A stretch of 41,728 nucleotides of DNA from Phycisphaerae bacterium (GTDB lineage Bacteria > Planctomycetota > Phycisphaerae > Phycisphaerales > SM1A02). Position 1 is the first letter of the stretch; every line of letters begins with the position of its first letter. Where the stretch lies: positions 1-41,728 of the forward strand of contig NZFX01000028.1 in the NCBI GenBank assembly GCA_002689385.1, written 5' to 3'. Below the pieces are notes generated by a model that worked only from the letters and a program-made list of their open reading frames with translations, searched no databases and was not told where the DNA came from. The position numbers and the translations under genes are program-made. Of the stretch, positions 9,969 to 16,596 are shown piece by piece.

Positions 9969-11126
9969 TTGAAGATTTTGCATTATTTTCCAACGACCCT
10001 GCTCAGTGAAGGTGGCACTGTTCGAGTTGCAATTGATATGTGCGCCGTACTTGCAAACCGTGGCCACGATGTTACTTGGCTAACGTGCGACTGTACCGAC
10101 GTGCCAGAATCGTGGAAGCAAGATTCGCCAAACACGCCGACAGTAGTACACCTAGGCGCGTTTGAAAAATCTGGCAAGCGACTCACTAAGGAGCAATGCA
10201 CAATTGCAAAAGAAACCATTTGCAACATGGACGTTGTGCACGTGCACGCCATGTGGGACCCGTCAAACCCTCAGATTGCGCACGCATGCGACAATACTAA
10301 CACTCCTTGGGTGCTTAGCGTCCACGGCATGCTTGATGACTGGAGCATGAAACAACGCACACTTAAAAAACGCGTGTACTTATCGACGGTAGGTCGGTGC
10401 ATGGTGCGAACTCCAGCCGTATTTCACACAACCGCTGAAGCAGAAAACAAGCAAGCTTCAAAATGGTTCAAGCACAGAAACACTGCCGTTGTGCCTTGCA
10501 TCGTTGATTTAGATCCATACGCTAATGTTCCAAATCCAGCCGAGGCGCTCGAGGTTTATGGTGAATCCGACAAACCAACAGTGCTTTTTCTAAGTCGAGT
10601 GCACGAAAAAAAATCTATTGAAACACTCATCGACGCTACGAAAATCCTCAAAGATGCAGAGTCACCTATCAGACTTTTCATAGCTGGAACTGGCGAAGAA
10701 GCATATGCTAAAACACTCAAAGCAAGAGCCCAGTCCATTGGCGTAGAAGAGCATGTTTCATTCCTTGGCATGGTTGTTGGCAGTTTGAAACTTTCGCTCT
10801 ATGCGATGGCTGATATATTTGCCCTGCCCACACAGCAAGAAAATTTTGGGCTCGTCTATGCAGAAGCGATGCTTTGCGAAACAGCTATCATTGGTACAAA
10901 GGGTACTGACATCTGGCAGGAACTCGAAGAAGGTGGCGCAATCATTAAAGAAAGAACTCCGGAAGCATTTGCTGGCGCTATCAAAAAACTTACCGAGGAC
11001 AAAGAGTTGCTTCAAGCAAAGGGCGCCGCTGGAAGAAAACACGTTTTGCATTGGCTAAACACCGACACCGTCGCAAAGGGCTACGAAGCGATGTATAAAC
11101 AAGCCGTCAGTGGACAGAAATCGTAA
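9969..11126 (+). CDS. Glycosyltransferase family 4 (GT-B fold)
   Basis: Retaining GT4 glycosyltransferase, expected to use a nucleotide-sugar donor for glycan or exopolysaccharide assembly. The N-terminal acceptor domain starts KILHYFPTTLLSEGGTVRVA and the donor domain holds the conserved ENFGLVYAEAM segment with the E-x7-E motif. No ATG fits the conserved start. Two in-frame TTG codons (9960 and 9969) are possible; I chose 9969, since the purine-rich AAAGAAAGA is then about 9 bases upstream and the protein starts MKILHYF. It lies 16 bases after the transglutaminase-like gene. The last 20 bases overlap the convergent inhibitor gene. Confidence 0.9.
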   Translation: MKILHYFPTTLLSEGGTVRVAIDMCAVLANRGHDVTWLTCDCTDVPESWKQDSPNTPTVVHLGAFEKSGKRLTKEQCTIAKETICNMDVVHVHAMWDPSNPQIAHACDNTNTPWVLSVHGMLDDWSMKQRTLKKRVYLSTVGRCMVRTPAVFHTTAEAENKQASKWFKHRNTAVVPCIVDLDPYANVPNPAEALEVYGESDKPTVLFLSRVHEKKSIETLIDATKILKDAESPIRLFIAGTGEEAYAKTLKARAQSIGVEEHVSFLGMVVGSLKLSLYAMADIFALPTQQENFGLVYAEAMLCETAIIGTKGTDIWQELEEGGAIIKERTPEAFAGAIKKLTEDKELLQAKGAAGRKHVLHWLNTDTVAKGYEAMYKQAVSGQKS

Positions 11127-11505
11127 AAGAAACTACTTTTGTCGGCGGAGCTTTTTCTTCCCAAGGGCGCTGATACGAAAACATAAGCACTGTCTCACCT
11201 TTTCCAATTGCTCGAAGCGTCCAAGTCGTACTACCTCCAACGCCAACTCGACCACTAACATCAGAAATGAATGTATTCGCTACGTTTTTTATGACTGATG
11301 AATCGTGCACATCAAGCGACCAGGAATACCCCGTCGTTGGATTACTTGGCAACACAATTTCAAAAGTCCGACCCAAAGAAAGAACAATATTGCGATCGCT
11401 GTCAACTGCAGAAAATGGCCGGTTGATAACTACGGTGCCGTCCTTTGTTGCCGCAGTACAAGACGACAGAAGCATGAGTAAAAGAAATGGAATAAGTAGT
11501 TTCAT
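11107..11505 (-). CDS. Chagasin-type (I42) cysteine protease inhibitor lipoprotein
   Basis: A 132-residue protein with a lipoprotein signal (LLMLLSSC, Cys16) and an inhibitor I42 domain. All three inhibitory loop motifs of chagasin are recognisable: NPTTGYSW (about 56-63), the GGSTTWTLRA strand region (about 90-99) and RPWE (about 113-116). Family members bind papain-like cysteine proteases, so this may protect the periplasm or act on external proteases. It lies 18 bases downstream of the second permease gene and may be read through from the metal operon, but it also has its own good promoter at 11512-11540. Confidence 0.88.
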   Translation of the reverse strand: MKLLIPFLLLMLLSSCTAATKDGTVVINRPFSAVDSDRNIVLSLGRTFEIVLPSNPTTGYSWSLDVHDSSVIKNVANTFISDVSGRVGVGGSTTWTLRAIGKGETVLMFSYQRPWEEKAPPTKVVSFTISVH

Positions 11506-11511
11506 GCTTTC

Positions 11512-11540
11512 AGGATACCACTTTTATAAAAGCGTGTCAT
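11512..11540 (-). promoter_or_regulatory. Sigma-70-like promoter for the chagasin-type gene
   Basis: On the minus strand, ATGACA (11535-11540) is separated by exactly 17 bases from TATCCT (11512-11517), which lies 6 bases before the ATG at 11505. The spacer contains the perfect 12-base palindrome CTTTTATAAAAG (11521-11532), a possible operator. The promoter overlaps the 3' end of the permease gene. The short distance to the start implies a leaderless or nearly leaderless mRNA. Confidence 0.5.
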
Positions 11541-12816
11541 CTGGAACCCTCCTTCCATGTGGATCCTTCTTTGCATCTCCAAGCTTTGATTGCATTTCTG
11601 GAGTTGTCACATGCTCCAACCGCTCAGCAGCTTGATGTACCTGATGGACATCTTGTGGGTAATGTTCATCAAGATAGACTTCCCACAGACGATGCATTCG
11701 AACTAATTTTGTCGCCTTCTCGCGACCCTCTTTCGTAAGCGTCCAATACATCGTCGTTTTTTCAACCGCATTCGTTTTTTGCAAACCAAACAAAGCAATA
11801 TGAACAAGTAATGAGTGCGCCCCAATAGCTTCAGTTAACTGCGTTGGCACAACTGTCTTTTTACCACGCTCTTCTAATCTCCATAGTACGCCAAGAATAT
11901 CTTCCCGCAACACGAGTAAACGAACGGAATTACGTTGCCATTGTTTTGCGATGATGCCTTGGCTTGGCGAGCCAACCCAAGCAAGGATAAAGAACGCGCC
12001 CGCTGCCACTGCCATGGCACCAGCAGTGCTCGTTCCAGAGAAACCAAACCAAGTAGGAATAGTAATTGCAGAAACATGCCCAACAGCTGCTGATGCTATT
12101 GCAATACTAATTGCTAAAACAAACATCATGCCATATCTGTTCGTAAGTAAATACGCTGTTGCTGGTGGAACAATAAACATCGCAACGACAAGAATCGAAC
12201 CAACTGTTTCAAAAGCAGAAACTGCTGTGGCGGCAGTCATTGTCATCAGTAAATAATGCATAAACGATGGATGTATGCCCTGTGATTTCGCAAATGCTGG
12301 GTCGAATGATGTGATTTTAAGTTCTTTATAAAAAAGAAACATAACAAACAGGTTTGCAAGAAGCATGGCGCCATTCACAATCGCCCCGCGCGGGATACCA
12401 AAGCCATCAGGGTCTTGGTCAAACCATGCTAATTCAATCGAGCCATACAACACGCAGTCTGGGTCAATGTCAACATGGTCAACCGCTTGACGCATCAGGA
12501 CTAGACCAAAGGCAAACAAGACCGTGAACACAATCCCCATAGATGCGCCCGCTTCTACATTGCCGAGCGATTGAATAACCTGTACAAGAAATGCCGTGAG
12601 TAATCCAACTACTACTGCACCGATTAACATTGCCATTGGATCTCGGCTTCCCGTCAGCAAAAACGCAATTGCAATTCCTGGAAGTACTGTGTGGCTAATC
12701 GCATCTCCCATTAAGCTCATTCTTCGCAGAACAAGAACTGTGCCAGGAATTGAACACCCTGCTGCACAAAGTGCGCCAATGATCACGATCCATGTATCGA
12801 TAATGGACCACGTCAT
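11524..12816 (-). CDS. troD: Metal ABC transporter permease fused to DtxR-like regulator domain (second permease)
   Basis: Residues 1-290 form an ABC-3 family permease (Tro/Znu/Mnt type) with about eight membrane helices, including the coupling region RRMSLMGDAISH. Residues 298-430 are a cytoplasmic DtxR/MntR-like module: a winged helix (about 300-372) and a dimerisation/metal segment with HRLWE (His375, Glu379), VHQAAERLEH (His394, Glu398, Glu401, His402) and a DPHG tail. These match metal ligands of MntR/DtxR. ABC-3 permeases usually end at about 280-300 residues, so this is a true fusion. It overlaps the preceding permease by 4 bases (ATGA). Role: import of Mn, Fe or Zn with possible metal sensing on the transporter itself (inference). 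Confidence 0.9.
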   Translation of the reverse strand: MTWSIIDTWIVIIGALCAAGCSIPGTVLVLRRMSLMGDAISHTVLPGIAIAFLLTGSRDPMAMLIGAVVVGLLTAFLVQVIQSLGNVEAGASMGIVFTVLFAFGLVLMRQAVDHVDIDPDCVLYGSIELAWFDQDPDGFGIPRGAIVNGAMLLANLFVMFLFYKELKITSFDPAFAKSQGIHPSFMHYLLMTMTAATAVSAFETVGSILVVAMFIVPPATAYLLTNRYGMMFVLAISIAIASAAVGHVSAITIPTWFGFSGTSTAGAMAVAAGAFFILAWVGSPSQGIIAKQWQRNSVRLLVLREDILGVLWRLEERGKKTVVPTQLTEAIGAHSLLVHIALFGLQKTNAVEKTTMYWTLTKEGREKATKLVRMHRLWEVYLDEHYPQDVHQVHQAAERLEHVTTPEMQSKLGDAKKDPHGRRVPDDTLL

Positions 12817-14165
12817 GTTGAAGTACCTACAGCATGAGGGCTCTTTGGTATATCCGTTGCTTTAAGAAGTTCTTCAAGTTGCGAAACAAGATTTCTCCCA
12901 AGCACATGCTCAATCATATCTGCATCTCGATCGACATGCGAAGGAGCGATATCAGCGTACGTTATTAAATAGACTTCCCATAAGCGGTGATTCCTTACAA
13001 CCCGTGACGCTTCTGCAGAACCTTTTTCAGTCAAACGCCACATCGAATTTGGTTCCCGAGTTGCTACGTGCTGTTTTGCGCATCGACGTAGTAATTTTTC
13101 AACGGCACGCTTACTCCATGATCGAACATACACAATGTCTTCGATGGTGAAAGATGACGACTGTGTATCTTCACACACTTCCCACATTGCCCGGAGAATA
13201 TGTTGCAGTGAAATACGGCGCTGTAAACGAATACGAGTCAACTGCCGAATAAACAACCCATTGTTCGGACCAAAAACAAAACTCACAATGAACCAAAATC
13301 CACAAATCAAGACAATGACAGGACCTGTTGGCATTCGTGGAACAAGCGCGCTTGCTACCGCGCCAAGCCAACCACTCAAACAACCAATCAGAGCTGCTGC
13401 CATCAACATCGTTATTATTTTTGTTGTCCAATACCGAGCGCACGCTGCAGGAATAATAAGCATCGCAACTGCAAGAACAAGACCAACCGATTGCAATGCA
13501 ATAACTGTCACAATAGCAACCATCGCCATCAAAACAACATCGAGCAAAAGTGTCGGGCAACCTTGCACTGCGCCGAATTTTTCATCGAAACAAAGCAACG
13601 TCCACTCTTTATGGAGTGCAATTGTGACAATCACAATCCCTAGGGCGACTCCTGCCATAATTAGCGCATCGGATGCAACCATAGACGATGCTTTGCCAAA
13701 AATAAAACCACTTAACCCTGCTGCACTGCCTGTTGGTAACTCTGTTGCCATTCGCAGTAAGCACAGACCAAGCCCAAACAAAACACTCAAGACGATTCCA
13801 ATAGCGGCATCATCCTTTAATCGCGTAGTTTTTCGAATGCCGAGTATTCCAAGAACGCCAATACAACCAAACACAAACGCACCGAGCAACAAACCCGCAA
13901 GCGCCTTGCCATCACTTCCAAATGCAACCATGACCATAAACGCTGCGGCAATGCCTGGCAATGTTGCGTGGCTTAATGCATCGGCTGTGAGCGCACGTTT
14001 CCTCAGAAGTAAAAATGTGCCAATCAATCCAGAAGCGGTCCCGAGTGCCATAACACCTAGCACTACAACACGAGTGTTGTAGTCTTCAAGCGAAAATACC
14101 CGAACAATTTGTTCGAGTGAAGGCAACGCCATACTTGCATCAGAAATGGAATGCGAAACAATCAA
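12813..14165 (-). CDS. troC: Metal ABC transporter permease fused to DtxR-like regulator domain (first permease)
   Basis: Residues 30-305 are an ABC-3 permease (LLLRKRALTADALSHATLPG contains the conserved D-A-x-S-H coupling motif). Residues about 318-450 form a second DtxR-like module: winged helix (318-390), then NHRLWEVYL (His393, Glu397) and DADMIEH (Asp416, Glu419, His420). The eight residues HRLWEVYL are identical to those in the other permease, so both fusions share an origin. Compared with that copy, the His of the VHxxA motif is replaced by Asp and the DPHG tail is degenerate (SPHAVG). The two permeases probably form a heterodimer that brings both regulator modules together below the membrane. 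It overlaps the ATPase gene by 4 bases. Confidence 0.9.
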   Translation of the reverse strand: MIVSHSISDASMALPSLEQIVRVFSLEDYNTRVVVLGVMALGTASGLIGTFLLLRKRALTADALSHATLPGIAAAFMVMVAFGSDGKALAGLLLGAFVFGCIGVLGILGIRKTTRLKDDAAIGIVLSVLFGLGLCLLRMATELPTGSAAGLSGFIFGKASSMVASDALIMAGVALGIVIVTIALHKEWTLLCFDEKFGAVQGCPTLLLDVVLMAMVAIVTVIALQSVGLVLAVAMLIIPAACARYWTTKIITMLMAAALIGCLSGWLGAVASALVPRMPTGPVIVLICGFWFIVSFVFGPNNGLFIRQLTRIRLQRRISLQHILRAMWEVCEDTQSSSFTIEDIVYVRSWSKRAVEKLLRRCAKQHVATREPNSMWRLTEKGSAEASRVVRNHRLWEVYLITYADIAPSHVDRDADMIEHVLGRNLVSQLEELLKATDIPKSPHAVGTST

Positions 14166-14938
14166 TGGCGAGCAAGTCGGTCCACTGCTTCTGACAGAAG
14201 CGTCAATCGGCCGCCGTATGTTTTCTTCAAGTTCTCATCTGTGAACACTTCGTCAACAGGCCCATGCGCCACAACGCGCATGTTCAACAAGATTACGTGG
14301 TCAAAATATTCACGAACCGTCTGTAGGTCATGATGGACAACGATGACCGTTTTTCCCGTAGACCGCAATTCGGCCAGAACGTTTACAATCGCTTTTTCGG
14401 TGGCCGCATCAACACTAGCAAATGGTTCATCCATAAAATAGATGGAAGAGTCTTGCGCGAGTGCTCGTGCAAGAAACACACGCTGTTGCTGCCCACCAGA
14501 GAGTTGGCTTATCTGCCGGCGTGCATAGTCTGCCATGCCAACTCGGTCGAGTGCATCCATCGCTATTTGCGCGTCTTGCTTGCGTAACGGCTTGCACCAA
14601 CCAATACTTCCATACCTTCCCATTGCAACAACGCCGAGTGCGTCAATTGGAAAATCCCAATCGACTGACTCGCGCTGCGGAACGTACGCAACCAATTTGC
14701 GTTGTTTCCTAAATGGCTTACCGTAAATCATTACCTTGCCAGATGCTTTTGGCACAAGGTCCATGACTGCTTTTATAAGCGTACTTTTACCTGCGCCATT
14801 TGGTCCAACGACGGCAATGAGTTTGCCCTCTGGGATGTCGAGGTCAACATCCCACAACACAGGTTTGCGATGGTAAGCAACCGTTAAATCGTGAATCGAA
14901 ACAGGCGAAGTTGAAGAGTGTCCTTCCTCCATTCGCAT
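14162..14938 (-). CDS. troB: Metal ABC transporter ATP-binding protein
   Basis: A 258-residue ABC ATPase that powers import by the two permeases. Visible motifs are Walker A GPNGAGKST (about 45-53), the signature LSGGQQQR (about 147-154), Walker B SIYFMDEP and the switch His in VIVVHHD. It has the YVPQRESVDWDFP segment of Mn/Zn/Fe-type ATPases. The start codon shares one base with the stop of the substrate-binding protein (TAATG) and the end overlaps the next gene by 4 bases, so this is a tightly coupled operon. Confidence 0.95.
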   Translation of the reverse strand: MRMEEGHSSTSPVSIHDLTVAYHRKPVLWDVDLDIPEGKLIAVVGPNGAGKSTLIKAVMDLVPKASGKVMIYGKPFRKQRKLVAYVPQRESVDWDFPIDALGVVAMGRYGSIGWCKPLRKQDAQIAMDALDRVGMADYARRQISQLSGGQQQRVFLARALAQDSSIYFMDEPFASVDAATEKAIVNVLAELRSTGKTVIVVHHDLQTVREYFDHVILLNMRVVAHGPVDEVFTDENLKKTYGGRLTLLSEAVDRLARH

Positions 14939-15882
14939 TACTCTTCTCCCGGTGCACTAATTATTTCGGTAAATCCTTGCTCTGGAACCATTCCACCCAG
15001 CGCTTGCGCAATAGTGGTGATGTTATGGTCAAGCATGCCGATGTATGTTCCTTCGTACGTACCGCCCTGACCCATCGCATCGGAATACAATCGCCCACCG
15101 ATTGCAACGGTGTGCCCTTTTGCTTTTGCGCCTTCAATAAGAGCGAGCACATTTCGATCGGAGACACTTGACTCAACGAATACGGCAGTGATTTCTTTGT
15201 CAACCAACATTGTCACAAGCCGGTTCACATCTTCAATGCCTGCTTCAGATTCTGTCGACAACCCCTGAATACCAACCACTTCGATGCCATACGCTCGGCC
15301 AAAATAATTAAACGCATCGTGCGCAGTAATTAACACACGTTGGTTTTTGGGGACAGACGCAATTGCGCCAATCGCGTACTCGTGCAACGCCATTAACGTT
15401 TCGCTGTACGCTTTTGCATTCGACTGGTACTCTTTACAATGCTCAGGGTCTTGTTTGCAAAGCGCTTCTGCTACCGCATCGACCGCTCGGGCCCAAGCCG
15501 AAACATCCATCCATACATGCGGATCCCAGTGCCCTTCAAACTCTGGCGGCTCAAGCAAATACGTTTCTTCAATGAGTTCTGTTACAGGGAATACTACTTT
15601 TCCTAAACGGGAAGCTTTAAAAAAAGTATCAGTCATTCGACCTTCAAGCATCAAGCCGCTATAAAAAATCATGTCCGCGTTCATTATCTCACGAGCATCT
15701 GATGCGGTTGGTTTATACAAATGAGGATCAACGCCCTCGCCCATGAGCGCCGAGACTTTCCCATGCTCACCTACAACTTGCCTTGTAATATCCGCAACCA
15801 TGCCGGTGGTTGCAACAATAGTTAGTTCAGCAGTAGCTATTCCCGCAAAGGCAAAAAGCATAATCATTGTTTTTAGTAGCAT
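14938..15882 (-). CDS. troA: TroA-type metal-binding protein of ABC importer
   Basis: Periplasmic solute-binding protein of cluster A-I, 314 residues, with a signal peptide ending near Ala18. Metal ligands match TroA: His54 (VDPHLYKP), His122 (WDPHVWMD), His188 (ITAHDAFNYFGRAYG) and Asp268 (LYSDAMG). His at the third position, where PsaA-type Mn proteins have Glu, favours the TroA/Zn-Mn group. It lacks the His-rich loop of ZnuA. The start is fixed by a strong Shine-Dalgarno sequence (AAAGGAG, 15889-15895, 6 bases upstream). It is the first gene of an operon with ATPase, two permeases and perhaps the chagasin-type gene, and diverges from the DtxR-type regulator. Confidence 0.94.
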   Translation of the reverse strand: MLLKTMIMLFAFAGIATAELTIVATTGMVADITRQVVGEHGKVSALMGEGVDPHLYKPTASDAREIMNADMIFYSGLMLEGRMTDTFFKASRLGKVVFPVTELIEETYLLEPPEFEGHWDPHVWMDVSAWARAVDAVAEALCKQDPEHCKEYQSNAKAYSETLMALHEYAIGAIASVPKNQRVLITAHDAFNYFGRAYGIEVVGIQGLSTESEAGIEDVNRLVTMLVDKEITAVFVESSVSDRNVLALIEGAKAKGHTVAIGGRLYSDAMGQGGTYEGTYIGMLDHNITTIAQALGGMVPEQGFTEIISAPGEE

Positions 15883-15896
15883 AAAAGACTCCTTTT

Positions 15897-15936
15897 GATT
15901 AGCCAAAAGTTTAATCTGTGGTATGCTATAAGTCAA
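15897..15936 (-). promoter_or_regulatory. Divergent promoter region with inverted-repeat operator for tro operon / DtxR gene
   Basis: The 57 bases between the divergent starts contain a minus-strand promoter, TTGACT (15931-15936) and TAAACT (15908-15913) with a 17-base spacer, leading into the TroA gene. An inverted repeat GATTA-N10-TAATC (15897-15916) covers the -10. For the plus-strand regulator gene a TATAAG (15927-15932) lies 7 bases before its ATG. This arrangement fits repression of the importer by the metal-loaded regulator, with autoregulation. The binding site is inferred, not a match to a published consensus. Confidence 0.6.
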
Positions 15937-15939
15937 GCC

Positions 15940-16596
15940 ATGCTTTCAAGTACCGTCGAAAATTATCTCAAATCGCTCTTTCTGCTTGATCCTCGAGGCG
16001 AAAAAGAGGTTGCCACAGGCGAACTCGCAAAATCGCTGGAAGTCACCCCTGGTTCTGCTACTTCAATGATTAAAACGCTTGCACAAGCAGGACTCGTTGA
16101 GCATCGCCCGCACTACGGCGTTCGGCTTACCAGTCAAGGCAGAACGCTCGCTGTACACGTAGTTCGGAGGCACCGAATTGTCGAGTTGTTTCTAGTAAAT
16201 GTACTCGGCATGGATTGGAGCGAAGTACATGAAGAAGCAGAGCAACTCGAACATGTAGTCTCTGATGAAGTCATTACACGAATGGATGATTTACTCGGGC
16301 ACCCAAGTCATGACCCACACGGTGACCCAATTCCCTCTGCGGATGGGACACTGCCAACACGCACGCTGCAAACACTTTCATTCTGTAATGAAGGTGACAA
16401 TGTATCTATCGCACGTATTGGAAACCAAAATACCGAGTTCTTAAAGTTCGCAGAAGATAATGGACTATTGCTTGGAAGAACGATCACCATTAAAAACAAA
16501 AATGAAATTGCAGACTCCATAACAATTACAACTCACGAAAAAGAAGTTGTTCTTGGCTTAGCTGCTGCTGGAAAAATTGAAGTTGAACATGTATAA
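15940..16596 (+). CDS. DtxR/MntR family metal-dependent transcriptional repressor
   Basis: A 218-residue regulator with a winged helix (1-72), dimerisation/metal domain (73-140) and C-terminal FeoA/SH3-like domain (145-215), so DtxR-length rather than MntR-length. Ligand positions His78 (RRHRI), His97, Glu101, Glu104 and His105 (VHEEAEQLEH) are kept. In the N-terminal helix (TVENYLKSLF) the positions of MntR Asp8 and Glu11 are Asn8 and Lys11, so the metal site must be altered. ATG 15940 was chosen because the family begins with this helix. It is divergent from the Tro operon, its likely target. The stop overlaps the M28 peptidase start by 8 bases. Confidence 0.92.
   Translation: MLSSTVENYLKSLFLLDPRGEKEVATGELAKSLEVTPGSATSMIKTLAQAGLVEHRPHYGVRLTSQGRTLAVHVVRRHRIVELFLVNVLGMDWSEVHEEAEQLEHVVSDEVITRMDDLLGHPSHDPHGDPIPSADGTLPTRTLQTLSFCNEGDNVSIARIGNQNTEFLKFAEDNGLLLGRTITIKNKNEIADSITITTHEKEVVLGLAAAGKIEVEHV

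Follow-up and report, generated by a model that had tools for sequence, protein, structure and literature searches.

A predicted manganese or iron ABC importer with a DtxR-like domain on each permease: a candidate metal-sensing valve

What does a domain otherwise known from metal-dependent gene regulators do at the end of a membrane permease, and why should both permeases of one importer carry it? These questions are raised by a locus in the window, namely, the whole stretch of 41,728 nucleotides from a Phycisphaerae bacterium that was analysed here. The answer suggested below is that such domains act on the transporter rather than on DNA.

The operon and the two fused domains

The locus comprises an operon of four genes and a divergent regulator gene, as follows.

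14938..15882, minus strand: binding protein (SBP) of the zinc/manganese type (ZnuA family), first gene of the operon (PF01297, 1.8e-76)
14162..14938, minus strand: ABC ATPase of the importer (PF00005, 8.8e-29)
12813..14165, minus strand: permease A, the first permease, ABC-3 with a C-terminal DtxR-like domain (PF00950, 1.5e-54; PF02742, 7.1e-15)
11524..12816, minus strand: permease B, the second permease, ABC-3 with a C-terminal DtxR-like domain (PF00950, 5e-46; PF02742, 3.9e-15)
15940..16596, plus strand: soluble MntR/DtxR-type regulator with a FeoA domain, divergent (PF02742, 7.3e-33; PF01325, 1.2e-11; PF04023, 7.1e-12)

With PF00950 in both permeases and a ZnuA-type binding protein and an ATPase encoded alongside them, the operon is best explained as an ABC importer of the ABC-3 type, with Mn2+ or Fe2+ as the predicted substrate. 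The top NCBIfam match of the ATPase is to a manganese/iron importer ATPase, at a score under the cut-off of that model. This protein of 258 residues contains a single ABC_tran stretch (30-174), with no regulatory domain of the kind found on the ATPases of MetNI and ModABC. In the case of the binding protein, the longest ORF reaches 15936, although the ATG at 15882, with AAAAGGAG upstream, reads as the likelier start. The longest ORF of the soluble regulator, whose closest solved structures are 5zr4 and 8pvt, opens with TTG at 15895, while its ATG lies at 15940. A search for operators around the 57-bp gap between these two genes (15883-15939) returned only two 7-nt inverted repeats, with arms 38 and 78 nt apart.

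In permease A (450 residues), Pfam matches above cut-off were obtained for ABC-3 over residues 32-298 and for Fe_dep_repr_C over residues 379-436; in permease B (430 residues), the corresponding matches, likewise above cut-off, span residues 11-278 and 361-425. PF01325, the N-terminal DtxR domain, is listed in the soluble regulator but in neither permease at E values up to 1, such that the completeness of the sensor domain rests on structure. The two domains, supported by structural alignment to DtxR, are as follows.

12816..13223, minus strand: DtxR-like domain of permease A, residues 315-450
11527..11925, minus strand: DtxR-like domain of permease B, residues 298-430

When compared to a solved DtxR structure, 128 residues of the A tail (residues 315-446) were aligned with a Z score of 16.0 and an rmsd of 2.1, and 131 residues of the B tail (residues 299-430) with a Z score of 18.3 and an rmsd of 2.0. 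The AlphaFold models have a pLDDT of 90 for A and 92 for B, and the membrane domains align with PsaBC with Z scores of 34.4 and 32.3, respectively. It is thus confirmed that both permeases end in a two-domain DtxR/MntR core, the N-terminal winged-helix domain of which is recognised in both tails by fold and not by PF01325. Neither permease has a Pfam match to the FeoA/SH3-like domain that the soluble regulator carries as its third domain. A preliminary description of this DNA, made from the sequence, had proposed a complete DtxR-like domain on both permeases, and this is borne out by PF02742 matches over cut-off and by the structural alignments, the fold being present after residue 290-318 in both AlphaFold models. 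The motifs quoted there, namely, HRLWEVYL in both tails, VHQAAERLEH and HVDRDADMIEH, were correctly read. It also counted three sensor modules in the locus, correctly, and the whole 1.94-Mb, 87-contig genome has no PF02742 match over cut-off beyond these three.

Junction, metal site and winged helix

In the AlphaFold models, each sensor is joined to its membrane domain by a helix.

11869..11955, minus strand: junction helix of permease B, residues 288-316 (block pLDDT 93-96)
13164..13256, minus strand: junction helix of permease A, residues 304-334, arranged as in B (block pLDDT 92-95)

The helix of B follows the last membrane helix, becomes sensor helix 1 and bears D306. The spacing from G287 to D306 is 18 residues in all 45 permease B rows compared, and that from G303 to L324 is 20 residues in each of the 59 permease A rows. 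The distance between the exit glycine and sensor helix 1 also took one value in all rows that have both marker letters, 111 of the 126, of a set of fused tails not chosen by the HR[LIV]WE pattern (set 1). By contrast, the winged-helix stretch behind the junction varies in length, from 56 to 67 residues in B and from 37 to 89 in A. Because the same fixed spacing is seen in the YtgR-like clade, termed Chlamydiaceae-like on the strength of genome size and sequence, junction length does not separate gating from repression.

The ligand roles of positions in the tails, which we take to be those of the MntR, ScaR and DtxR structures, were assigned by alignment in the present analysis. The B tail keeps the full set (D306, H375, E379, H394, E398, E401, H402 and D418). 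The A tail retains H393, E397, E419 and H420, with H322 at the helix-1 position, D412 in place of His and D416 in place of Glu, i.e., three positions replaced by His or Asp, in agreement with the earlier remark that ligands are better kept in the second permease. D306, H394, E401, H402 and D418 are invariant in the 45 permease B rows, the window's own included, these having been drawn from the best-scoring 80 loci and kept if the tail scored well and contained HR[LIV]WE; given this choice of rows, the constancy of H375, E379 and W378 is a product of selection by that motif. In set 1, all four core ligands (His, Glu, Glu, His) are present in 20 of 20 single-permease tails, 38 of 50 A tails and 37 of 56 B tails, with at least one missing in 12 A and 19 B tails; some fused tails are degenerate. 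The keeping of these positions points to selection on the metal site of the tails.

The winged helix behaves differently. At 60-80% identity in the dimer domain, winged-helix identity among fused tails was 0.339 (A), 0.362 (B) and 0.333 (single), with 0.280 in Bacteroidota and 0.344 in Chlamydiota outside the YtgR-like clade, as opposed to 0.472 and 0.520 in soluble regulators and 0.534 in the YtgR-like clade, a value favoured by the way in which this last group was picked, namely, through a winged-helix motif. When the Chlamydiaceae-like group was instead picked on genome size alone (12 distinct sequences), identities of 0.49 (60-70% bin) and 0.57 (70-80% bin) were obtained. The bootstrap ranges of the fused tails outside the YtgR-like clade do not overlap with those of the soluble and YtgR-like classes. 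Duplicates and rows lacking an HR-type motif are left out of these counts, as are soluble rows of the short MntR type, which lack DPHG; one winged-helix comparison omits the 23 fused rows (of 126) that have no Glu-His pair, and L084_R_5766 (fused tail in the wrong frame), L113_A_5590 and L097_B_3299 were dropped. With winged-helix identity serving as a proxy for binding, the fused sets thus show no conserved DNA-recognition region such as that of DtxR/MntR repressors. Low conservation would still be compatible with DNA binding at varied operators, yet the comparative evidence suggests gating rather than DNA tethering. In five Chlamydiota tails (L207, L210, L213, L221 and L222), the winged helix is partly missing and the dimer segment retained; no second copy of the DtxR domain was found in four of these five genomes.

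Distribution and descent of the fusions

Of 80 fetched regions, 33 have the fusion on both permeases, 13 more have a single tail (10 A-only and 3 B-only) and 14 have no tail reaching 30 bits. Fusion of A alone is seen in Bacteroidota, Chlamydiota and gammaproteobacterial loci where both permeases are visible. Since many transporters have one tail, pairing of tails within one transporter cannot be general and, given the tail-less regions, missing core ligands and degenerate tails, the device is dispensable.

An unfused copy of the domain was assigned to 35 of the order's 39 fusion genomes under a rule that treats as fused any domain beginning downstream of a same-strand ABC-3 match at a distance of up to 900 nt. 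Hand checking raised this to 37 of 39, because the short regulators of G270 and G319 are ORFs of their own (L068 and L070) that had been misassigned as fused; the remaining two genomes, G400 (78% complete) and G406, have no such copy. In Chlamydiota, a second copy is present in 9 of the 82 genomes with the domain. A parallel that fits with gating is offered by apparently membrane-anchored DtxR-FeoA proteins, which lie 2.1-2.4 kb from a FeoB in eight of eight genomes inspected (four checked by Pfam).

A quick-method tree of 100 rows, built on few columns, unites the 21 soluble rows in one group with a support of 99 and keeps A tails largely separate from B and single tails; the labels require 10 changes in total, and the deep forks are weak. 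This grouping speaks for old, separate descent of the A, B/single and soluble domains, and against the idea that one permease recently acquired its domain from the other or from the soluble regulator. The tryptophan of HRLWE was considered as a mark of fusion, being found in 99% of 103 fused rows (those without the Glu-His pair again left out) and in 4% of 23 soluble planctomycete rows, and was rejected because it also occurs in 11 of 12 soluble regulators shown for Bacteroidota.

Possible roles and comparison with known systems

We lean, if only slightly, towards reading the importer as a metal-sensing valve subject to trans-inhibition, with a DtxR-fold sensor on each permease and with metal binding and gating as its presumed properties. 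Gating by cytoplasmic metal had been put forward in the preliminary description, and it draws indirect support from the kept metal positions, the helical junction of constant length, the lack of a trace of selection on DNA reading and the presence of a separate soluble regulator. With enough metal in the cytoplasm, each tail would bind it between the dimerisation helices and sensor helix 1, which carries D306 in B and H322 in A, and the two tails would pair beneath the transporter as DtxR subunits do. Closing of the tails would then move or lock the interface between membrane domain and ATPase, an action proposed because sensor helix 1 continues the post-membrane helix, and import would stop. 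Control of transcription would fall to the distinct soluble regulator at 15940, and Chlamydia YtgR would be this device put to a special purpose by a lineage that mostly lacks another such regulator. More tentatively, the widespread permease-DtxR fusions may be mainly allosteric valves on Mn/Fe importers rather than repressors stored in the membrane, with a transcription-factor fold taken over as a rigidly coupled metal sensor, doubled in many Planctomycetota, with YtgR of Chlamydiaceae as a derived exception, a generalisation that is plausible but held with some doubt.

It is unlikely that the tails serve instead as receivers or buffers that capture ions at the cytoplasmic mouth and pass them on with no gating. 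Conservation of ligand positions but not of DNA recognition fits such a role, as does a site directly behind the membrane exit in the AlphaFold models, yet this role leaves unexplained why the tails retain their two-domain fold, with its dimerisation segment, and a junction of one exact length. Cleavage of the tails to yield soluble, metal-dependent repressors of their own or other operons has the architecture of Chlamydia YtgCR behind it, for which cleavage and iron-dependent repression are described in those parts of the reports drawn on. Here, however, a soluble regulator adjoins the operon, most of the order's genomes with a fusion also have an unfused copy, the winged helix is not conserved as it is in the YtgR-like clade and two tails would be redundant, making this quite unlikely. 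Invariance of metal positions across large, diverse sets renders it improbable that the tails are structural clamps that just stabilise the permease pair, or decaying remnants, even if some lineages have degenerate tails or none. That paired tails would keep operator DNA at the membrane as an anchored transcription factor, the preliminary description's alternative to gating, matches their DtxR fold, winged helix included, but is very improbable because soluble regulators and the YtgR-like clade conserve that helix far better, the junction is a fixed-length helix and not a loose tether, and a soluble regulator is present.

Were most relatives to use the tail as a valve, a large class of Mn/Fe importers would be under protein-level substrate feedback and one fold could be traced from the switching of genes to the gating of transport. 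The YtgR-like clade provides a natural contrast with the remaining carriers.

In the logic proposed, the valve resembles MetNI (C2 domain) and ModABC (C-terminal domain of ModC), where, according to the portion of the source drawn on (PMC10710835), cytoplasmic, dimerising, substrate-binding domains halt transport at high substrate. Those domains belong to the ATPase and differ in fold, whereas the domains considered here are DtxR-like and found on the permeases, with inhibition being presumed. The Streptococcus pneumoniae manganese importer PsaBC (7kyo/7kyp) shares the membrane domain fold (Z 32-34), yet its solved permease chains (258-290 residues) stop where the sensor starts here. Soluble MntR, DtxR, IdeR, SloR and DR2539 share the two-domain core fold and metal ligand positions, but not the fusion to a permease, the poorly conserved winged helix or the lack of a FeoA/SH3-like domain seen in the window's tails.

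The closest precedent for the fusion, which the preliminary description had treated as new, comes from Chlamydia trachomatis, in which YtgCR (CT069) joins a permease to a repressor and is reported to be cleaved, yielding YtgR, an iron-dependent, DNA-binding repressor. In the sections of the literature on such fusions drawn on, this one intracellular pathogen is the organism studied, with the fused part freed as a gene switch, and a review, in the part drawn on, places YtgCR-type orthologues in 11 phyla. As in YtgCR, a C-terminal DtxR-like domain is borne by an ABC permease in a metal-importer operon, and the junction length equals that of Chlamydiota homologues, whose fused domain sits on the first permease. 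Unlike in Chlamydiota loci, where only that permease is fused, both are fused here, the winged helix lacks YtgR-like conservation and a soluble regulator is found in the locus, at 15940, while 73 of the 82 Chlamydiota are without a second copy; having no other DtxR-type regulator is the usual Chlamydiota state, lies outside the published definitions found and does not apply here. As such, permease-DtxR fusion is already known, and the combination of two fused permeases with an adjoining soluble regulator is a variant of it.

Domain make-up of the importer permeases

The importer operon encodes a ZnuA-family binding protein, an ATPase and a pair of ABC-3 permeases, arranged head to tail on the minus strand with overlapping ORF ends, while a soluble MntR-like regulator is encoded divergently. 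The features considered are:

12813-14165, minus strand: permease A (450 aa), with a C-terminal DtxR-like tail
11524-12816, minus strand: permease B (430 aa), with a C-terminal DtxR-like tail
15940-16596, plus strand: soluble MntR/DtxR-type regulator with a FeoA domain
11107-11505, minus strand: protease inhibitor of the chagasin family (PF09394, 3.6e-26); its start resembles that of a lipoprotein, and it lies immediately downstream of permease B

Both permeases scored above the Pfam cut-offs for the ABC-3 domain and for the DtxR metal-binding/dimerisation domain. In sequence searches against solved structures, the membrane parts matched PsaBC-type manganese permeases, and the tails matched SloR, ScaR, DtxR, IdeR, MntR and further regulators. 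AlphaFold models built with 44 (B) and 58 (A) homologues (pLDDT 92.2 and 89.9, respectively; pTM 0.85 each) were compared with known folds using Foldseek and VIA-align, which recovered both halves of each protein (PsaBC, Z 32.3 for B and 34.4 for A; DtxR, Z 18.3 for B and 16.0 for A). The absence of a DtxR fold, named in the preliminary description as a refuting outcome, was seen in neither tail, and the DtxR-like domain claimed there for each permease is borne out by Pfam and by structural alignment to DtxR. The claim of three sensor modules in one locus likewise holds, the two tails and the soluble regulator being the only DtxR-type domains above cut-off in the source genome.

Distribution of the fusion and of separate regulators

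The permease-DtxR fusion is real and widespread. Permease B found matches, many of them full length, in 166 of 392 genomes of the window's phylum. When 80 regions from this search were considered, one per genome and spanning the whole score range, both permeases were fused in 33 (the window being an additional case), permease A alone in 10 and permease B alone in three; one permease with a fused tail was seen in 20, some being contig ends or having an unparsed partner, and no tail reached 30 bits in 14. A scan of GTDB (one genome per species) for the conserved stretch RxHR[LI]WExYL yielded at least 572 relatives, the best 80 of which include records labelled Planctomycetota, Verrucomicrobia, Kiritimatiellae, Chlamydiae, Bacteroidetes and Pseudomonadota. 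Among these best 80 loci, both permeases were fused in 42, one of two in 32 and a single permease in four, with none parsed in two; the first permease alone was fused in those Bacteroidota, Chlamydiota and gammaproteobacterial (Thiomicrorhabdus, Thiotrichales) loci containing both.

In seven loci (L075-L078, L081, L087, L110), the permease B tail is only winged-helix-sized (77-90 aa) and permease A bears a full canonical sensor, a one-sided loss between the two permeases. Single-permease operons (L096, L098-L103, L105, L106, L109, L111) encode fused tails of about 212-249 aa with an extra C-terminal stretch. Four of the proteins were scanned, and in two this stretch showed a weak FeoA likeness that stayed short of the cut-off (E 0.012 and 0.0014); the tails are possibly full three-domain DtxR proteins on a homodimeric permease.

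Within the window's order, the fused domain was detected by a distance rule in 39 of 61 genomes, 35 of which also contain an unfused copy by this rule (37 after two were checked by hand). Both kinds were also present in the one Bacteroidota and the one gammaproteobacterial genome checked. Six of 61 Bacteroidota genomes hold the domain in an open frame at least 400 aa long, and each has another copy of 220-255 aa; of the six, permease fusion was seen only in G423, the genome holding locus L134. A DtxR-type domain is present in 82 of 92 Chlamydiota genomes, mostly within open frames 393-474 aa long (the permease part being checked in some); nine of these 82 genomes carry a further, short copy, which in three contains an internal stop.

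A second DtxR device (L245, L247, L250, L252; genomes G410, G303, G529, G352) presents an N-terminal hydrophobic helix by eye, followed by DtxR dimerisation and FeoA domains according to Pfam scans of the four proteins. In all eight genomes looked at (these four plus G404, G413, G394, G416), a FeoB_C match is located 2.1-2.4 kb away. This second device suggests that the DtxR fold has been recruited repeatedly to metal importers.

Metal site and membrane-to-sensor junction

Across 45 permease B sequences, window included, picked for a well-scoring tail, D306, H394, E401, H402 and D418 (permease B numbering), all outside the selecting pattern, are invariant. In 59 permease A sequences, the positions equivalent to H394 and E398 of B covary (D/D in 32, H/E in 25, mixed in two), a switch that may reflect one event, since the sequences are related. 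Permease A of the window is of the D/D type, with His322 in helix 1 and S-P-H replacing D-P-H. In a set not chosen by pattern, all four core ligands are retained in 38 of 50 A, 37 of 56 B, 20 of 20 single and 23 of 23 soluble sequences. The ligand roles are presumably those of the MntR, ScaR and DtxR structures, transferred to the tails by alignment. One lineage (L079, L083, L085, L089, L090, L094, L095) has permease A tails of kept length but with most ligands gone; in L090, Pfam matched the B tail (1.2e-10), with the A tail falling below cut-off.

In both models, a single helix (B, 288-316; A, 304-334) begins right after the last membrane helix and goes straight on into sensor helix 1; no linker of low confidence separates the membrane domain from the sensor. 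The distance from the conserved membrane-exit Gly to this helix is the same in 45 of 45 B and 59 of 59 A sequences, the latter including Chlamydiota, Bacteroidota and gammaproteobacteria, and in 111 of 126 sequences not chosen by motif pattern, the 111 being those with both marker letters. In 50 Chlamydiota proteins, the distance was 20 in 43 by pattern and in the other seven by eye. The junction is as constant as the domain core (G364 to H375, 10 residues in 45 of 45 B sequences); the winged-helix stretch behind it varies (56-67 residues in B, 37-89 in A). Such constancy suits mechanical coupling rather than a loose tether. Junction length alone does not, however, exclude a repressor role, being common to the Chlamydiaceae-like sequences.

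Winged-helix conservation and a putative mode of action

Whether the tails act as DNA-binding repressors was addressed by comparing winged-helix identity between pairs with 60-80% identical dimerisation domains.

Winged-helix identity (bootstrap range, over sequences and not over phylogeny). The A, B and single sets comprise Planctomycetota and other loci outside the named groups.
Fused A: 0.339 (0.318-0.360)
Fused B: 0.362 (0.329-0.400)
Fused single: 0.333 (0.294-0.361)
Bacteroidota fused: 0.280 (0.229-0.318)
Chlamydiota fused, among the best 80 of at least 572 GTDB relatives: 0.356 (0.338-0.375)
Other Chlamydiota fused, genome survey: 0.344 (0.329-0.358)
Soluble regulators: 0.472 (0.423-0.523)
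Bacteroidota soluble: 0.520 (0.481-0.544)
YtgR-like Chlamydiaceae set: 0.534 (0.499-0.570)

The YtgR-like set serves as positive control, since its fused domain, a reported DNA-binding repressor, has a winged helix conserved like that of soluble regulators. Joint and one-alignment-per-class versions gave the same direction. Five Chlamydiota fusions (L207, L210, L213, L221, L222) lack parts of the winged helix but retain the whole segment for metal binding and dimerisation. No further DtxR domain is present in four of these genomes; in the remaining one, G501, there is a short copy interrupted by an internal stop. Judged from sequence conservation, these results are evidence that the fused sensor outside the YtgR-like clade does not face the constraint that a DNA-binding repressor would be expected to show.

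Instead, metal binding may close the tail and the tails may pair with each other, with the helix common to sensor and membrane domain transmitting the closing, such that import would stop. In A-only systems, there must be either one tail per transporter or pairing between transporters. From relatives of the regulator and ATPase, our guess is that the imported metal would be Mn2+; Fe2+ is possible. MetNI and ModABC offer precedents for the logic of import stopped by substrate, as described in a review from 2023 on how bacterial transporters are controlled post-translationally (PMC10710835). A term search of that review gave no match to DtxR or YtgC, and a term search of a 2025 paper on PsaBC/MntBC allostery (PMC11779740) gave none to DtxR or trans-inhibition.

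Permease-DtxR architecture is not new, since orthologous fusions have been described, as has YtgCR, a Chlamydia trachomatis protein in which an ABC permease is joined to the DtxR-like repressor YtgR. According to the published accounts, YtgR is cleaved during infection and, with iron, represses ytgABCD and trpRBA (PMC5599777, PMC7755916, PMC6504234); one of these, a review, credits a 2012 study with detecting orthologues of the fusion in 11 phyla (PMC5599777). Literature searches for YtgR led to the Chlamydia papers; among the papers listed by searches in general wording, none was recognisable as addressing such a fusion in bacteria other than Chlamydia. The fusion considered here is of the same kind as YtgCR; by contrast, the winged helix is poorly conserved outside the YtgR-like clade.
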